A stretch of DNA of 32,698 nucleotides, taken from Candidatus Aminicenantota bacterium. Lineage in GTDB: Bacteria; Acidobacteriota; Aminicenantia; Aminicenantales; Aminicenantaceae. The DNA is taken from NCBI GenBank assembly GCA_030669305.1, contig DAOVDU010000015.1, positions 1 to 32,698 of the forward strand. Direction: 5' to 3'. The notes below the pieces were generated by a model. The model did not search any database. It worked only from the letters and a program-made list of their open reading frames with translations, and was not told the origin of the DNA. Every line of letters starts with the position of its first letter. The first letter of the stretch is position 1. This document shows, piece after piece, positions 8,271 to 32,565 of this stretch. A program made the position numbers and the translations under genes.

Positions 8271-8390
8271 GTTCAGTTGGTCAGTTAGTCGGTTAATCAG
8301 TTGGTAAGTTAAATATTTTAATTAAAATAACAGACTAACCGATTAACAGACTAACAGTCTAACCGATTAACAGACTAACAGACTAACCGA
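8271..8390. repeat. Long octamer palindrome, copy 1
   Basis: The left arm is made of TCAGTTAG/TCGGTTAA-type octamers, the centre is TTAAATATTTTAATTAAAATAA (8309-8330), and the right arm is made of GATTAACA/GACTAACC octamers. The arms are inverted copies of one another, so the whole tract can fold into one imperfect hairpin. Confidence 0.9.
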
Positions 8391-10346: not shown

Positions 10347-10434
10347 GTTCAGTTGATCAGTTAGTCGGTTAATCAGTTGGTCAGTTAAATATTTTAATTA
10401 AAATAACAGACTAACCGATTAACAGACTAACCGA
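10347..10434. repeat. Long octamer palindrome, copy 2
   Basis: Same arrangement as at 8271-8390: inverted octamer arms around the TTAAATATTTTAATTAAAATAA core. It sits just downstream of tRNA-Pro and upstream of the lipoprotein gene. Confidence 0.9.
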
Positions 10435-15518: not shown

Positions 15519-15613
15519 GTTCAGTTGGTCAGTTAGTCGGTTAATCAGTTGGCCAGTTAAATATTTTAATTAAAATAACAGACTAACCGATTAACAGACT
15601 AACAGACTAACCG
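15519..15613. repeat. Long octamer palindrome, copy 3
   Basis: Inverted octamer arms around the AT core. The GCTTTGAGTTCTTCATTCCTC tail that follows is also found at about 8411-8432, and here it contains the last two codons and stop of the HAD gene. Confidence 0.9.
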
Positions 15614-17510: not shown

Positions 17511-17711
17511 CTCCTCACTCCTTACTTAATCCATAATCCCTAACCCCTAATCCTTAATCCAATAGTCCATTTAAATTGGTTAAATTGGCAATTAGTAAAT
17601 GGTGAATAGTTAATAGCTTTTTTGCCTTAAACCTTAAACTTTAAACCTTCAACCATTATTTCAGCTTACGGCTTACGTCTTACGGCTTACGAAATTAGTT
17701 TTGAACTTTGA
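17511..17711. repeat. Composite repeat block, copy A
   Basis: About 200 bp made of ordered heptamer blocks: CTCACTC-type, CCCTAAT-type, a unique TCCATTTAAATTGG segment, AATGGTGAATAGTTAATAG, CCTTAAA-type, GCTTACG-type, and a GTTTTGAACTTTGAG tail. A 108-bp stretch matches copy B (27910-28114, inverted) base for base. A direct copy C lies at 32251-32419. Confidence 0.93.
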
Positions 17712-17730
17712 GTGCTGAGTTTTATGTTTT

Positions 17731-17799
17731 ATGTCTTGCCTCTTTGTATTGCCAGCGAAACGTTGTTTTACTTGCCTAATAAGGTATTGTCTTGCCTAT
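17731..17799. repeat. GTCTTGCC-spaced repeat, degenerate copy
   Basis: Same order of words and spacers as the copy at 2971-3037, with point changes (GCGAAACGTTG spacer; CCTAATAAGGTA in place of CCCAATAGGGCA). Its last TTGCCT is the likely -35 of the next gene. Confidence 0.8.
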
Positions 17800-17828: not shown

Positions 17829-18263
17829 GTGAGTAATATTATCGTTTCAATTTTTACTATGCTTTCTTTCCTTCTCTCTTCGACAACTCTAAATATTGAA
17901 AGGTCATTCCTTCAAAACAACCCAAAAATGCTCTATAATTTATTTTCCTCCGAAAACTACATTGATATTTCACTTCCTGAGCCAATCTCTTTTTCGGACC
18001 AACTTTCAAATCAGCAGGCTTATTTTCTGTTTAAAAGAATATTTTCTTCTTATTCCACATTTGAATTTTATGCCGAGAGACCATCCTCTCTTCCAGAAAA
18101 GGAAAGTTTCATTCTAAAGGCAAGATGGTCTTTCAGGGACAAAAAAAATAAAAACCAGTTCCTGTTTCATATCTTTTTTTACCTTAAGGAAGAGAAGGTA
18201 AAAAAAAATAAAAAAACCCAAATTTCATGGAGAATAACAGAAATCAAGGCAGAAAAAATTTGA
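17829..18263 (+). CDS. Small exported protein, NTF2/DUF4783-like
   Basis: A 144-residue protein with a GTG start; an ATG at 17859 is an alternative. The hydrophobic N-terminus (about 3-20) suggests export. The rest resembles a small cone-shaped NTF2-like fold: SSENYIDISLP, a helix with LSNQQAYFLFKRIFSSY, FEFYAERPSSLPEKESFILKARWSF, and a final SWRITEIKAEKI strand. This matches the general pattern of DUF4783-type exported proteins, though I am not sure of the family. Its stop overlaps the start region of the giant histidine kinase, so the two are probably translated together. It may be a periplasmic partner of the kinase; that is inference from position. Confidence 0.6.
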   Translation: MSNIIVSIFTMLSFLLSSTTLNIERSFLQNNPKMLYNLFSSENYIDISLPEPISFSDQLSNQQAYFLFKRIFSSYSTFEFYAERPSSLPEKESFILKARWSFRDKKNKNQFLFHIFFYLKEEKVKKNKKTQISWRITEIKAEKI

Positions 18264-21200
18264 AAATTTATGCCAAATTAGATAAGAAGAGGATATTTCT
18301 CTATGCCTTTGTTCTAGGAATAGCAATCTCTGCTCTTTTTTTGATTCTTTCCTTTCTCCTGCCCACACTAATTTCCTCAAACTATTACCAAAAAAGCCTA
18401 ACCCAGTTGAGAAACAAAGCCAAAACCATCAAAAATGAATTTACTCACGTTTTAGATAATATCGAGCAAAAAAAACAGCTGCTATTGTCTTCTCCTTTCC
18501 CTGAGAAAAAAGATGGAATCTTTACATTGTTCAAGCAAATTGACCTCAATACTGAAAGAGAAGGGCTTGCCTATTATAAAAGCCAGGAAGACCTCATTCT
18601 CTGGCTTGGTAACATCGTAGATATAAAATCAATCCCCTACAGCAACGAGGATGGAATTCTTTATAAGGAACAAAAATCTTCTCTTCTTGTCCGCTATAAA
18701 GCTTCTGTTTATCTCATCTCTATCCAGAAAGTCAACAGAGACGATTACATTGTTCTTTACAATCTCTTAGCCTTCCTCCCTCAATTTAAAACTCCTTATT
18801 TGAAAGAAATTAGCTTCTTGAAACCAAAACTTCAAAGGAACACCGTTATAGATTATCTAGATTTCCATGAAGATGTATCAGGCTTCGAAAAAATTTTTGC
18901 CAGCTACAAAGACGAATACATCGGGCAGCCAAGGCTTCAGGACAATATTCAAACCATCTTATTTCCCTTGAGGAATGAAAAGAATGAAATCGTCGCCACT
19001 GTTACGCTCAGCTCTCCTTCTCTCTCTTCTAAGATTTCAGTCCAGAAAGAAAACATACTTCTTATTTTATACTTGCTCTTTGGAGCCTCACTTTTATCCG
19101 TTCTGATACACCTCTTAAAATCTCCTTTATTTTTCAAAGAAAGAAAATTTCTGCCAGGATTGCTCGTCCTCTTGACATTAGGAGGTTTAAGGTTGCTTTT
19201 TTTCCCATTAAGCAACTTAGAAAAAATTCAATCCCTCTCCATCTTTTCTCCTGCTTCAGCAAGTTTTTTATCCTTCTGGAATTTTACTAAATCTCCTGCT
19301 GATATTTTTCTAACATCGCTCTTTCTTTTCCTCATCATTGGTTGTTTAGCTGTTTATTCTCGAAATCTTTTTAATAGTGAAAAAAAAGAATCTTCTTTTG
19401 TTTTATCCTTTCTTTTCAGTTCTGTATTTATTTTTATTTCATTGTTACTAATCTTTCTCTTTCAGGAATTCTTGATTCGCCTGGTTTTCCACTCAAGCTT
19501 AAACCTGCTGCGCTTCTCTTTTGAACCTTCATTCATTCTCATCCATCTCAGTATTCTTTTTTTCTTTTCCACTTTTTTCCTTACCAGTCTAACAGGAATA
19601 AGAATTACCTCTCTTTACTCTTCCAAACTTCTCCTTCCCCTTCTAATCTTGCTTCTGGAGTTCGGAGTTTATATTCTTATTTTTAGGGAAAGAAATTCTT
19701 TTATTCTTTTCTTCCTTCAGGCTTCAGTCATCATTCTAATTTTCATATTCGCTTACTTCCCAAAAGTCATGAGAAAAAAGGAAGTCTTATTTTCAGCCTT
19801 TCTCTTAATTATTTTATTTATCTTTTTTTCAGTCCATTACTCCTCCTCTAACCGCAATCGTTCACTTCTTCAGGATTCTCTCCAAAATATCATAAAATCT
19901 CAGGAAAATTGGGGAACATTTTTAATAAATCAATCCTTGCCCGAGATCGACAAAAAGAATGAATCGATTGAATCATTTTTCAACATTTCTGAACCTGCCG
20001 ATTTAGCTCATTCTCTCTGGGAGAGGACTTTAATTGCAAAATTTAATTGGTATTCCAGCTTAGAAATGCTGAGCCCAGAGGGAATAGTACTCTCCCGATT
20101 CTCCCTGAATGTTCCCGAGCTTTACAGGCTTGATGTTGGGCTCCCCCTAAGCCAAGAATGGTCCATATCGCATCAAACCATCCCGTTTATGAAGAAAGAA
20201 AGGGATTTTATAGTCGGGTACAAAGATTGGTTTGAAGAAGAAAATCATCTGGGAAGATTAATAATCTGTCTTTCAGTCGATTATGATATGCTTCCCTTTC
20301 TATACTCAGCTAATCCTTATTTTGAGCTACTCAGGGTTAGTTCCATACCATCTCTTGAGAAACTAGATTTAGGATTTGCAATTTTTGACTCAAGCGGGAA
20401 ATTACTCTTCAACCCAGATAAAATATCATCTGGCATTCCCGCAACGCTTCTCCAGAAAATTCAGACTTCCCAGGATTCCATCTGGTCTTCCTTCACCGAC
20501 AAGAAGAGAAAATTTAAGAGTTTATATTTCAGAAATAAAACAAGAATATACTCATTATTCATTCCTGAGAAAAATTTCCTCAATTATTCCGTAGAATTCT
20601 TAACGCTTTTTTCTCTTTATCTAATTTGCTTTCTTTTTTTCTTTTTTCTTTTCTCTATAGTATTCGGCACAAAAAAATTAAAAAATCCTCTCTGGTCATT
20701 CTCAAATCGCGTTTACATATCTTTTGTTGCAATTGCCCTAGTCCCTCTTTTCTTGTTTACTCTTTCTACTAGAAACTTCTTTGCTCGAATCTTCACCCAA
20801 CAGTTCACGGAAAAAGCTGAGGCTCAAGCCAGTGTTGCTCAGCGAGTTATGGAAGACTTTATCTTTATCCAACAGGAAGAACAGGTCTCTTTGACTCTTC
20901 CCCCTGATGATCTGGTTCTGTGGATAAGCTCGACTATATCGAATGATGTAAATTTATACCAAAATGGGAGTCTTATTTCTTCCAGCCGCCGTGAGTTTTT
21001 TGATTACGGGCTTCTTCCTGAAATAATCAACGGAGAGGTTTTTTATAAAATTCAGTACGAAAACAATCCATTCTATACTCAAACCCAAAAAATCGGAGAC
21101 TATTCTTTCCACACCCTTACCATCCCTTATTCTTTCCAAGATTCCCTTCTCCTCATCTCCCTCCCTTTTCCTTTAGAACAGCAGGAAATATCAAAAGCCA

Positions 21201-22162
21201 CCGAAGATTTGATAGAATTTTTATTCTTTATTTCTGCCTTCTTTATAGCTGTCGTCCTTCTTTTTGCTCGAGGAATAGGGGAAATGATCATCACTCCCGT
21301 AAAAAAACTACTGGTTGGAACTAAAGAAGTAAGCCTTGGCAACCTTGAAATATCCATCCCGTATAAACATAAAGATGAGATGAAAACAATAATCGACGGA
21401 TTCAACACAATGGTCAAGAATCTAAAAAAACACCAGCAGGAACTTGCAGATATGACTAAAAAAGTTGCCTGGGCTGAAATGGCAAGAAAAGTAGCTCACG
21501 AAATAAAAAACCCTCTCACTCCGATACAGCTTTCAGCAGAACATCTGTTAAAGGTCTATAATGATAAGAAAGAAAATTTCGATGAAGCTCTAAAGGAGTC
21601 GGTTTTATACATCATAAACGAAGTCGAAAACCTCAGAAAAATTGCTCACGAATTTTTAGAAATATCAAAGGAAGTCACTCTCCAAAAAGAAGATTTTGAC
21701 TTAAAAGAAACCATTCAAGAAACAATAGAGCCTTATAAAAAAATTCTTTCGGAAAGAATCACTTTTTTAGAAACATATGATGGAGAAGATTTTGTCTTTA
21801 CGGGAGACAAAGCCAAAATAAAAATTGTTTTAAGAAACATTTTTACCAATGCTATCGAATCCGTTCATGGCCAAGGTGAGATAAAAATTAAGGCATCTAG
21901 CAAGAAAACAGGATTAATCCTTGAGATCAAAGACACGGGAATCGGCATCGAAAAAGATGCATTAGATAGAATCTTTGAACCCTACTTTTCGACTAAAGAT
22001 GTGGGGACAGGATTAGGACTGCCAATTGCCAAGAAAATCATAGAAGACCATGGAGGTTCCATAAACGCTTCAAGCAAAAAAAATGAAGGAACCCAAATCC
22101 TTATAAGGCTTCCAAAATCCAGCGACATAAAAAACAATAAAAGCAAGACAAATTTGGTTTAA
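18227..22162 (+). CDS. Giant NtrY-like multi-TM sensor histidine kinase
   Basis: A 1311-residue sensor. About 12 membrane segments are visible: one near 22-50, eight clustered at 275-540, two near 790-855, and one near 997-1022. Large extracytoplasmic loops span about 50-275, 540-790 and 855-995. Then come HAMP (about 1020-1075), HisKA with His1091 in ARKVAHEIKNPLTPIQLSAEHL, and an ATPase domain with N1208 (N box), DTGIG at 1236-1240 and GTGLGL at 1260-1265. The H-box matches NtrY. No response regulator is adjacent. The ATG at 18227 lies inside the previous gene and has no Shine-Dalgarno. A TTG at 18260 that overlaps the TGA stop (TTGA) is an alternative giving 1300 residues. The TAA stop is part of a GGTTTAA heptamer array. 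Confidence 0.9.
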   Translation: MENNRNQGRKNLKIYAKLDKKRIFLYAFVLGIAISALFLILSFLLPTLISSNYYQKSLTQLRNKAKTIKNEFTHVLDNIEQKKQLLLSSPFPEKKDGIFTLFKQIDLNTEREGLAYYKSQEDLILWLGNIVDIKSIPYSNEDGILYKEQKSSLLVRYKASVYLISIQKVNRDDYIVLYNLLAFLPQFKTPYLKEISFLKPKLQRNTVIDYLDFHEDVSGFEKIFASYKDEYIGQPRLQDNIQTILFPLRNEKNEIVATVTLSSPSLSSKISVQKENILLILYLLFGASLLSVLIHLLKSPLFFKERKFLPGLLVLLTLGGLRLLFFPLSNLEKIQSLSIFSPASASFLSFWNFTKSPADIFLTSLFLFLIIGCLAVYSRNLFNSEKKESSFVLSFLFSSVFIFISLLLIFLFQEFLIRLVFHSSLNLLRFSFEPSFILIHLSILFFFSTFFLTSLTGIRITSLYSSKLLLPLLILLLEFGVYILIFRERNSFILFFLQASVIILIFIFAYFPKVMRKKEVLFSAFLLIILFIFFSVHYSSSNRNRSLLQDSLQNIIKSQENWGTFLINQSLPEIDKKNESIESFFNISEPADLAHSLWERTLIAKFNWYSSLEMLSPEGIVLSRFSLNVPELYRLDVGLPLSQEWSISHQTIPFMKKERDFIVGYKDWFEEENHLGRLIICLSVDYDMLPFLYSANPYFELLRVSSIPSLEKLDLGFAIFDSSGKLLFNPDKISSGIPATLLQKIQTSQDSIWSSFTDKKRKFKSLYFRNKTRIYSLFIPEKNFLNYSVEFLTLFSLYLICFLFFFFLFSIVFGTKKLKNPLWSFSNRVYISFVAIALVPLFLFTLSTRNFFARIFTQQFTEKAEAQASVAQRVMEDFIFIQQEEQVSLTLPPDDLVLWISSTISNDVNLYQNGSLISSSRREFFDYGLLPEIINGEVFYKIQYENNPFYTQTQKIGDYSFHTLTIPYSFQDSLLLISLPFPLEQQEISKATEDLIEFLFFISAFFIAVVLLFARGIGEMIITPVKKLLVGTKEVSLGNLEISIPYKHKDEMKTIIDGFNTMVKNLKKHQQELADMTKKVAWAEMARKVAHEIKNPLTPIQLSAEHLLKVYNDKKENFDEALKESVLYIINEVENLRKIAHEFLEISKEVTLQKEDFDLKETIQETIEPYKKILSERITFLETYDGEDFVFTGDKAKIKIVLRNIFTNAIESVHGQGEIKIKASSKKTGLILEIKDTGIGIEKDALDRIFEPYFSTKDVGTGLGLPIAKKIIEDHGGSINASSKKNEGTQILIRLPKSSDIKNNKSKTNLV

Positions 22163-22183
22163 AGTTTAATGTTTAAGGTTTAA
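22156..22183. repeat. Heptamer array (GGTTTAA) containing the kinase stop codon
   Basis: Four 7-bp units (GGTTTAA, AGTTTAA, TGTTTAA, GGTTTAA). The TAA at the end of unit one ends the histidine kinase gene. Confidence 0.9.
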
Positions 22184-22199
22184 TGTTATTTATTCTTTA

Positions 22200-22371: not shown

Positions 22372-23298
22372 ATGAATAAAAAAAGAACAATAATTTCCCT
22401 CTTCATCATATCATTTTTAATTGCTTTCCATCCTGCCTTGGCTGAAAAAATAAGCCTGAAATTAAGTTATAATACCAGTTCTATCAGTGGGAGCGACTTG
22501 AACACTTGGCTGGAATCTCTCAATTCTGTCTGGAACGACTGGCAAAAAGCTAAAGGAGGTCAGGTAGAAGGACACTTTGAGCTTTTTAGTTATGGCCCCA
22601 AGTATGAAGTTGAACTACGAATTCCTATCTCCTGGGGAATAGCTCTCAATTTGAGTGGAAATTATTTCAACAGTGCAAAAGAAGGGAATATAGCCTATCA
22701 AAGTGATACAGGAAAGCAAAGTGAAAGTCGCTTTATAAGGAATGAAATCAGCGCTATTCCGTTAAAAATTGGATTGAGTTACTCCTACCCTGTGCCGATC
22801 ATTGAAAATCTTTATGTTTTTGCGAATGCCGGAAGACACATAATCTTCGTTCAATATAAAACCACCGAAGACTGGGAAGCCTTTTTTAAGAGCTTCGGGG
22901 AAGAATTTCATTATTGGTATAAAAAAGATAATACCTTTCGTTCTGAGGCATTAGGATTTTATGCTTCCCTTGGCGTAGAGTATGATCTTATTAAATATAT
23001 TGCTGTTGTAGTCGAAGCGGAAAAAATCTGGTCAAGAGTGGATGGCTTTAAAGGACCTCATTCCTTCAAAGGTGTTCATCCAGGATTTGGGGATCCTAAA
23101 AACGGGTTTATATTTGAGGAATCAGGGAAAGCTTCTCTCTATTTTTATGAAGAAAATCCATATTGGACGGAGAAATATTACCCTGTTCTTTCAGGACACA
23201 AAGAGAGGCCTGACAGTGAAGAATTCAGAAACCTCAGGCAGGGAGAATTTAGCTTCAAAGACTTCTCTTTTAAGATAGGAATAAGATTTAAATTTTAA
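22372..23298 (+). CDS. Outer-membrane beta-barrel protein
   Basis: A 308-residue protein with a clean signal peptide, cleaved after ALA at residue 24. The mature part consists of alternating amphipathic strands (for example YEVELRIPISWGIALNLSGNYF, split by turns) with Gly- and aromatic-rich ends. It closes with FSFKIGIRFKF, whose last residue is Phe, the usual BAM recognition signature. It resembles small 8-12-strand barrels; no specific family or substrate can be named. No strong ribosome binding site precedes the ATG. It converges on meaB with a single base between stop codons, the tightest junction in the window and free of repeats. Confidence 0.8.
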   Translation: MNKKRTIISLFIISFLIAFHPALAEKISLKLSYNTSSISGSDLNTWLESLNSVWNDWQKAKGGQVEGHFELFSYGPKYEVELRIPISWGIALNLSGNYFNSAKEGNIAYQSDTGKQSESRFIRNEISAIPLKIGLSYSYPVPIIENLYVFANAGRHIIFVQYKTTEDWEAFFKSFGEEFHYWYKKDNTFRSEALGFYASLGVEYDLIKYIAVVVEAEKIWSRVDGFKGPHSFKGVHPGFGDPKNGFIFEESGKASLYFYEENPYWTEKYYPVLSGHKERPDSEEFRNLRQGEFSFKDFSFKIGIRFKF

Positions 23299-26119: not shown

Positions 26120-26209
26120 AAGTTCAGTTGGTCAGTTAATCAGTTGGTCAGTTAAATATTTTAATTAAAATAACAGACTAACCGATTAACAGACTAACTG
26201 ACTAACTGA
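26120..26209. repeat. Long octamer palindrome, copy 4
   Basis: Same arms and core as the copies at 8271, 10347 and 15519, and same orientation. It lies in the convergent gap between the YHS-like and cupin genes. Confidence 0.9.
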
Positions 26210-27135: not shown

Positions 27136-27957
27136 ATGAAAAAAGTGCTTCTCTCCATTGCCGGGTACGACCCAACCTCAGGGGCAGGGATAATTCTCGA
27201 TTTAAAAGTATTTCAACATCTAGACTTTGAGGGAATGGCAATCCTAACTTCCGTAACTTCGCAAAACACAATACATGTAAAAAAGTTCCTTTGCGTTCCT
27301 TCTGATTTCCTCTGGGATCAGTATAAATGTCTCTATGAAGATGTCAATTTAGCCGGAATAAAAGTTGGAATGGTCGGCTGTAAAAACAATATTCCTATTA
27401 TCGAAAGAATCTTGTCCGACAATCCAGACATCCCTAAAGTCATAGACCCTGTCTTTAAGTCTAGCTCAGGAATCTGGCTTTTAGAAAAAAAAGCTGTTTC
27501 CATTTACATAAAAAAAATCAGCGGGAAAGCATCTCTCCTTACTCCTAACCTAGAGGAAGCCGCTTTATTATCAGGCAGAAAAGTTGAAAACTTATCTGAT
27601 ATGAAAGAAGCAGCTGAAAGAATCTACAGTCTAACAAGAGTTCCCTGTTTGATTAAAGGAGGACATCTTCCAAACCAAGCATCAGATCTATTGTTTGACG
27701 GGACCATATTTCATCTTTTAAAAAAAGAAAAAATAACAAAAAAAGTCCATGGAACAGGATGTTTTTTCTCATCAAGCCTTCTAGGCTATCTGGCAAAAGG
27801 AAAATCTCTCAAAAAAGCATGTTCTCTTGCAAGCAGACTTACTTTTAACGCAATAAAGAATGCGGTTTCGATCGGTCATGGACAGGCCATCATCACATTC
27901 CCTATTAAAACTCAAAACTCAAAGCGCAAAACTAATTTCGTAAGCCGTAAGCCGTAA
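27136..27957 (+). CDS. thiD: Hydroxymethylpyrimidine (phosphomethylpyrimidine) kinase
   Basis: Ribokinase-fold kinase of 273 residues. It phosphorylates HMP and HMP-P for thiamin pyrimidine synthesis. Signatures: GYDPTSGAG (10-18) at the substrate site, IDPVFKSSSG, LTPNLEEAALLSG, LIKGGH, and the anion-hole motif HGTGCFFSSSLLGYLAKG. No TPP riboswitch is visible in the short leader, and no thiC or thiE is nearby. About the last 17 codons (IKTQNSKRKTNFVSRKP) read through the edge of composite repeat block B, and the TAA stop is inside a GTAAGCC heptamer, so the tail is repeat-derived and probably dispensable. Confidence 0.92.
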   Translation: MKKVLLSIAGYDPTSGAGIILDLKVFQHLDFEGMAILTSVTSQNTIHVKKFLCVPSDFLWDQYKCLYEDVNLAGIKVGMVGCKNNIPIIERILSDNPDIPKVIDPVFKSSSGIWLLEKKAVSIYIKKISGKASLLTPNLEEAALLSGRKVENLSDMKEAAERIYSLTRVPCLIKGGHLPNQASDLLFDGTIFHLLKKEKITKKVHGTGCFFSSSLLGYLAKGKSLKKACSLASRLTFNAIKNAVSIGHGQAIITFPIKTQNSKRKTNFVSRKP

Positions 27958-28114
27958 GCCGTAAGCCGAAATAATGGTTGAAGGTTTAAAGTTTAAGGTT
28001 TAAGGCAAAAAAGCTATTAACTATTCACCATTTACTAATTGCCAATTTAACCAATTTAAATGGACTATTGGATTAGGGATTATGGATTAAGTAAGGAGTG
28101 AGAAGTGAGGAGTA
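27910..28114. repeat. Composite repeat block, copy B (inverted relative to A)
   Basis: Four exact GTAAGCC heptamers (27940-27967) are followed by the GGTTTAA-type, TTCACCATTTAC and GGATTAG-type blocks, then GTAAGGAGTGAG. 108 bp are identical to the reverse complement of copy A. The left edge overlaps the last codons of thiD. Confidence 0.93.
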
Positions 28115-32097: not shown

Positions 32098-32565
32098 TCT
32101 CTACCTTCTCACATCTTCCTAAACATGATAATCAAAAAATTATCTTGTAGCAAATTATTTTTTACGCCAATTTATTCCGTTATGTCCGTTTAGCCCGAAG
32201 TGTCATTGTCTCCCACTCTCCCCATCTCCCAGTCTCCTTGTCCTCTTTTCTCACTCCTCACTCCTCACTTAATCCATAATCCCTAATCCTTAATCCAATT
32301 GTCCATTTAAATTGGTAATTAGTGAATGGTGAATAGTTAATAGCTTTTTTGCCTTAAACCTTAAACTTTAAACCTTCAACCATTATTTCAGCTTACGGCT
32401 CACGGCTTACGTCTTACGAGTGCACTGCCTCCTTGCTGTGAATGGTGATTGGGGAATACTGATATACTGCTGAACTGCCATACTGACGAAGAATAAGGGA
32501 GTGGTGAATGGTAAATGGTTTTTTTTGCTTACGGCTTACGATGTTATTGTTACTGAGTCACTGAA
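32098..32565. other. Gene-free 468-bp spacer of repeats
   Basis: Contains AT-rich leader, a CCGTTTAGCCCG nonamer-like fragment with GTGTCATTG (about 32171-32207), a CTCCCACTCTCCCC tract (32205-32240), composite block copy C (32251-32419), a segment with short GATTGGGG/TACTGA-like words, a second AATGGTAAATGG/GCTTACG mini-block (about 32508-32540) and a TTACTGAG array next to the larB stop. No gene seen. Confidence 0.8.
32251..32419. repeat. Composite repeat block, copy C
   Basis: Same block order and orientation as copy A. It lacks 10 bp around TTAAATTGGC and one CCCTAAC unit, but its stretch from GTGAATAGTTAATAG through GCTTACGG matches copy A over about 70 bp. Confidence 0.9.

Follow-up and report, generated by a model that had tools for sequence, protein, structure and literature searches.

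NtrY kinases follow the domain order HAMP-PAS-HisKA, have few membrane helices and one outside domain, and sit beside ntrX. Ordinary two-helix kinases of the dCache/PDC type carry one such domain between their helices and have neither an eight-helix membrane block nor a partner gene. The membrane kinase CpxA has an outside sensor domain and is accompanied by a small exported accessory protein, CpxP (PMC4160245), and CbrA and KsAmt5 are transporter-kinase fusions, with a membrane block of the SLC5 family in CbrA and of the Amt family in KsAmt5 (PMC8534201).

The locus described here resembles each of these systems in part. The window, i.e., the whole stretch of DNA that was analysed, is an entire contig of 32,698 bases (C25) from a genome of 2.06 Mb in 122 contigs, and it encodes a histidine kinase with twelve membrane helices. 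This protein shares with NtrY the membrane location, the HAMP domain and an H-box of the HEIKNPLTP type, and some of its relatives in this lineage show the order HAMP-PAS-HisKA, but it differs from NtrY by its 12 helices, its three outside domains, the missing PAS domain and the lack of a nearby receiver. A large membrane block ahead of the kinase is also a feature of CbrA and KsAmt5, although the block found here matches neither SLC5 nor Amt by Pfam, and the small, putatively exported protein encoded upstream is reminiscent of the CpxA-CpxP pair; in both cases the resemblance is one of working principle and not of membership. The dCache/PDC kinases are resembled in outside loops 1 and 2, which are probably Cache/PDC-like, and in the last 480 residues, which align with kinases of 490-540 aa. 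Our preferred reading, which we hold with moderate confidence, is a two-gene sensing unit, in which an exported partner and the 12-helix kinase would signal to an unlinked NtrC-type regulator.

Reading frame, domain order and spread of the kinase

The kinase frame at window positions 18227-22162 on the forward strand is open throughout (1311 codons) and the strand opposite to it is full of stops. This frame is not a product of chance, because full-length relatives are present in most of 40 related genomes; kinase-core matches were found in all 41 genomes including the own one, and the full-length relatives share 37 to 68 percent identity. The true start of the kinase is most likely the TTG at 18260 and not the ATG at 18227, because in 24 of 32 orthologues the kinase starts at an NTGA that overlaps the stop codon of an upstream frame (open over at least 100 codons) and because several orthologues carry a stop in the same frame no more than eleven codons ahead of the NTGA. 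The counterpart in the window is the TTGA at 18260-18263 on the forward strand, which comprises the kinase start codon at residue 12 and the partner stop codon and has an AAGG about 10 nt 5' of it. Thus, the kinase of 1311 residues proposed in an earlier note has an intact frame, but the likely coding sequence (18260-22162, forward strand) encodes 1300 aa. The residue numbers used here follow the ATG 18227, which adds 11 residues compared with TTG 18260. The overlap at the TTGA suggests that partner and kinase genes may be translationally coupled. At the other end of the gene, the stop codon lies inside a 7-base array (GTTTAAT, 22157-22187), and therefore the last residues of the window copy may come from the repeat.

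Three Pfam domains, each above the Pfam cut-off and all within the last 300 residues, were identified in the window protein: HAMP (residues 1021-1067, 21287-21427), HisKA (residues 1083-1148, 21473-21670) with the phospho-acceptor H1091 in HEIKNPLTP, and HATPase_c (residues 1193-1297, 21803-22117), all on the forward strand. Together with the conserved core residues H1091, N1208, D1236-x-G-x-G and GTGLGL this identifies the protein as a membrane sensor histidine kinase of the HAMP-HisKA-HATPase type. Save for the isolated matches in orthologues given below, the first 1000 residues match no Pfam family in the window protein, the 32 orthologues or 22 members from across the phylum; furthermore, no NCBIfam match covers the front of the kinase and a sequence search of solved structures returned none for it.

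At E 0.001 the kinase-free front (residues 12-1016), used as query profile, was matched in 152 of the 396 genomes of the phylum, including 129 of the 338 good ones; most of these have a single match, and the open frames measure about 1150-1650 aa. In the class set the front was matched in 93 of 119 genomes; families f8 and f11 had no kinase front among the matches listed and f9 had only divergent ones. The complete domain order is established for 22 members and inferred elsewhere, because only these were aligned end to end. This alignment includes four of the 20 stretches of one locus set (L080 to L083); from a second set of 20 stretches it leaves out L097 and L100, where the frame was not recovered, and L090, where it runs to the contig edge. 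The relatives L031 to L033 are 'Candidatus Aminicenantes' genomes, from a lineage that GTDB places in the phylum Acidobacteriota; L033 is partial and contributes to the domain profiles only up to residue 760. Many kinases of 490-540 aa from the same genomes align only from residue ~828 onward. Therefore, the last third is equivalent to a standard two-helix kinase, including an outside loop of its own, to which the first 810 residues have been added as a module. Judged from the sequence comparisons, the 12-helix kinase appears to be an old, phylum-wide design that is not unique to the window. The earlier statement that no standard kinase is known with this order has to be weighed against its wide spread in the phylum. 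On plasmids the whole protein gave only kinase-core matches among the matches listed, and the kinase-free fronts of the window protein and of L084 gave none; the 22 pattern matches of the front in viral contigs did not contain a relative. A description of this kinase architecture or of DUF4783 was not found in the literature searched, which lies mostly outside subscription papers.

The membrane block and the outside loops

The mean hydropathy of the 32 orthologues reveals 12 helices centred at residues 36, 286, 320, 369, 403, 445, 477, 501, 529, 803, 838 and 1004, with the N-terminus inside and outside loops at about 50-275, 545-790 and 855-995. From the N-terminus onward, TM1 is followed by outside loop 1, the eight-helix block, outside loop 2, a pair of helices, outside loop 3, TM12, HAMP, HisKA and HATPase. 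Additional hydrophobic peaks at 345 and, weakly, at 972 were judged not to span the membrane, because twelve helices place HAMP inside (parity). An AlphaFold2 model of residues 12-548, based on four sequences and with a mean pLDDT of 53.7, also folds the block into eight helices at low confidence. The approximately 12 helices, the eight-helix block between two large outside loops and the third outside domain before HAMP (loop 3), which had all been read from the window sequence before, are therefore confirmed by hydropathy and, for the block, by the low-confidence model. Across the 22 phylum-wide members, two helices between loops 2 and 3 are present in all and one before HAMP in 21, and there are one to three N-terminal helices and four to nine hydropathy peaks in the block.

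The block itself (residues 276-545, 19052-19861, forward strand) is delimited by hydropathy, the AlphaFold2 model and the 22-member set. It contains a polar motif (19190-19303, forward strand) consisting of R322, which lies in the block's second helix, and S356-P357-x-D359, which is located at the helix that follows. Both parts are invariant within the taxonomic order of the host, and among the 22 phylum-wide members R322 is found in 15 (H in two more), P357 in 19 and D359 in 17. The membrane-sensor and transporter families SSS, Amt, MASE1, 7TMR-DISM and 5TM-LYT gave no Pfam match in the window protein, and the same families were absent from the 32 orthologues (E up to 1) and the 22 phylum members (E up to 0.1); one OppC_N match among the 32 orthologues is at chance level (E 0.25). 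Likewise, the score of the block against a dCache profile is at chance (9.1), and the structural matches of the model of residues 12-548 mostly cover residues 52-206 and hardly the block. Hence, the suggestion that the block is transporter-like gains no support from Pfam transporter families.

Outside loop 1 (residues 50-275, 18374-19051) and outside loop 2 (residues 546-790, 19862-20596), both on the forward strand, are probably of the Cache/PDC type. Against the dCache profile, which was built from 14 sequences of related genomes, loop 2 scored 24.1, compared with 18.3 for the best of 40 column shuffles and 14.1 for the reversed profile; the corresponding values for loop 1 are 20.5, 16.5 and 13.0, and the hhalign probability is below 6 percent for both loops. 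The whole-domain alignment also points to a dCache-like loop 2. Pfam dCache_1 was matched in 2 of the 32 orthologues (best E 3e-4). For loop 1 the Cache/PDC likeness extends at least over residues 52-206, and among the Foldseek matches the closest structure to the model (mean pLDDT 54) is the periplasmic domain of LuxQ (Z 8.7, rmsd 2.9, 117 residues); a B. subtilis domain without an assigned function reaches an equal Z, and unmatched models commonly score a Z of 7 to 8. The next matches are the sensors Mlp24, rpHK1S-Z16, KinD, WalK and CusS, and the top structural matches are mostly PDC or PAS outside sensors, the closest being those of kinases and chemoreceptors. Foldseek with the model of the N-terminal half returned no match under E 0.1. 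The conserved positions among the 22 phylum-wide members are W126 (21) and G128 (20) in loop 1 and W598 (22), S610 (22) and F625 (21) in loop 2.

The best conserved outside domain, as seen by hydropathy and conservation, is loop 3 (residues 855-995, 20789-21211, forward strand). Its assignment as a Cache domain was rejected, as it scored 13.4 against the dCache profile with a shuffled mean of 13.2. An internal repeat of the three loops was also rejected, since the pairwise profile comparisons (E 0.007 to 0.26) are too weak. Of the structure models, the one of residues 12-548 gave the match of loop 1 to LuxQ, and the one of residues 540-1080 (loops 2 and 3) failed with a pLDDT of 37.5 and was set aside. 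The idea of several periplasmic sensor domains is retained for loops 1 and 2 on weak scores, but loop 3 lacks a dCache signal.

The gene directly upstream of the kinase

The upstream partner gene is the most informative part of the locus and was overlooked in the earlier note. It is located at 17829-18263 on the forward strand and encodes 144 aa with a hydrophobic, export signal-like N-terminus and a weak likeness to DUF4783. The family alignment comprises 22 proteins from 41 kinase neighbourhoods examined; in some neighbourhoods the partner frame was missed by ORF picking and then found by profile search. As a hydrophobic stretch near the N-terminus is present in all 22 aligned partners, we assume that the partner is an exported protein. 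DUF4783 (PF16022) is matched by 7 of the 22 at E up to 1, with a best value of 4e-4 and a Pfam cut-off of 24.1 bits. No DUF4783 match was found in the own genome at E 0.001, and among 14 control genomes only Bacteroides ihuae has one.

A profile search with the partner found 58 of the 396 phylum genomes, with one match each, and 57 of these 58 have a kinase match, compared with 152 of 396 genomes overall. Listed kinase coordinates make 54 of the partner genomes checkable, and the other four, including G230 without a kinase match, are not. In 52 of the 54 genomes, which are related and do not represent independent events, the partner immediately precedes the kinase and shares its contig and strand, with a gap of -308 to +276 bases (extrapolated); in the remaining two (G240 and G175) the genes are on different contigs. 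To our knowledge, CpxP is not encoded in such a coupled position directly before its kinase. Outside the taxonomic order of the host, most genomes with the kinase yielded no partner (58 versus 152 genomes), and therefore the kinase may work there without a partner or with one too diverged to be found.

The next gene downstream of the kinase (22372-23298) encodes an outer-membrane barrel-like protein with a sub-threshold match to OMP_b-brl, and in several related genomes a relative of this gene likewise follows the kinase. The intergenic regions of the contig contain two families of repeats. A mosaic of short 7-base tandem arrays (TAATCCA, CCTTAAA, GCTTACG and others) occupies 17527-17780, 27906-28070 and 32307-32419, and part of it (17560-17780) is matched 70 times in the own genome, but a search of 10 relatives gave only three matches, from two of them. 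The second family consists of 8-base units (TAACAGAC, TAACTGAT) at 962-1020, 8273-8390, 10349-10434, 15521-15611 and 26124-26206, which often face an inverted array (TCAGTTAG) and are intergenic. These 8-base arrays also occur on contig C90 of the same genome and are absent from the related locus L031.

Candidate regulator and competing explanations

The contig carries no receiver gene. With a receiver profile built from the own genome, a receiver was found in only one of 43 kinase neighbourhoods (L098), several kb away, so that the earlier observation of a kinase without response regulator holds for the window and for 42 of the 43 neighbourhoods. Of the 23 receivers and 13 sigma-54 domains encoded in the own genome, none is on this contig, and eight NtrC-type regulators adjoin a kinase. 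A protein on contig C90 (P0002) with receiver, sigma-54 and HTH_8 domains has a strong receiver and no adjacent kinase; two divergent NtrC-type regulators on C108 and C50 likewise have no kinase neighbour among the matches listed. By elimination, the C90 protein is perhaps the regulator of the kinase and we treat it as a candidate. Its best matches in the 119 class genomes reach at least about 68 percent in most genomes of the host's order and also in f10 and f12, fall to 53-59 percent in the majority of f9 genomes and do not exceed about 52 percent in f8 and f11; this distribution parallels that of the kinase, but the species tree as well. Three incomplete genomes (G005, G023 and G030) carry the regulator at 69-80 percent identity, and no kinase was detected in them; in four others, also incomplete (G007, G456, G462 and G463), the kinase is present and the matches to the regulator are only at paralogue level. 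A kinase core was found in 3 of 19 neighbourhoods of the regulator orthologues (L171, L177 and L184), and 8 of 8 positive controls were found.

The regulator is often divergent from two M16 peptidase genes, a pair that is kept in many relatives. On C90 the regulator gene (L167:6474-7931) adjoins genes for complex I subunits, a TrkA-type potassium channel gene and the two M16 peptidase genes. The sigma-54 promoter pattern has 8 matches in the window compared with 16.6 expected and therefore provides no evidence for sigma-54 promoters there; promoter and terminator scans were at chance level.

How the kinase relates to NtrY depends on which part is considered. It might be the NtrY of this lineage, sensing nitrogen or redox state in a NtrY-NtrX pair and enlarged by additional membrane parts, and the H-box and core order are indeed NtrY-like, as the earlier note stated, with a PAS domain between HAMP and HisKA in 6 of the 22 members. 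The other 16, including the window protein, have no PAS domain, 42 of the 43 neighbourhoods lack an adjacent receiver, and no NtrY model is found among the best 25 of 86 NCBIfam matches of the window protein, and each of these 25 is far below its cut-off. Because it has neither a PAS domain nor an NtrX neighbour, we do not file the protein as NtrY, and we regard this origin as rather improbable. It is slightly easier to imagine, but still unlikely, that the eight-helix block acts in solute binding or transport and that the kinase reads the state of the block by analogy to CbrA or KsAmt5. The conserved arginine and SPxD motif suggest more than an anchor, and transporter-kinase fusions exist (CbrA; KsAmt5, PMC8534201), but apart from the chance-level OppC_N match no Pfam transporter family was found in the window protein, the 32 orthologues or the 22 phylum members. 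An error of assembly or annotation that fused two genes has a negligible probability and is refuted by independent genomes that show this frame uninterrupted, the one-contig assemblies G012 and G024 among them.

The role of the upstream protein could also be a different one, i.e., an output or an envelope-assembly factor instead of a co-sensor, with the kinase alone sensing the state of the membrane. This would fit with the more than half of kinase genomes in which no partner was detected, and no published role for DUF4783-like proteins was found in the literature searched. We consider it a minority option, because the tight and restricted linkage (52 of 54 genomes, one match per genome) is better explained by a joint function and the overlap of start and stop codons suits a matched production of both proteins. 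According to the two-gene sensing unit that we prefer, the first gene would make a small exported protein and the second gene, started on the stop codon of the first, the 12-helix kinase. The partner and the outside domains may monitor the envelope or the surroundings of the cell, and the eight-helix block may add membrane sensing or couple the N-terminal domains to the last outside domain. Loop 3 and TM12 would then pass the signal through HAMP to H1091, and the phosphate would be transferred to an unlinked sigma-54 regulator of the NtrC type, for which the orphan on C90 is the most likely candidate.

More tentatively, and with less confidence than for the window itself, this arrangement may represent a phylum-wide system composed of an exported DUF4783-like co-receptor, a coupled orphan kinase, a new sensor block with the R...SPxD motif and an unlinked orphan NtrC-type regulator, which is often divergent from an M16 pair. 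Large multi-helix kinases of the Bacteroidota presumably have a similar loop 3, membrane motif and length, and if this likeness is true, it would lower the novelty of the kinase design. The eight-helix block with its arginine and SPxD would be a new membrane sensor module if confirmed by a structure, and DUF4783-like proteins would gain a testable job as partner of a kinase. The locus thus adds a large conserved sensor to a mostly uncultured lineage with almost no known signalling input.
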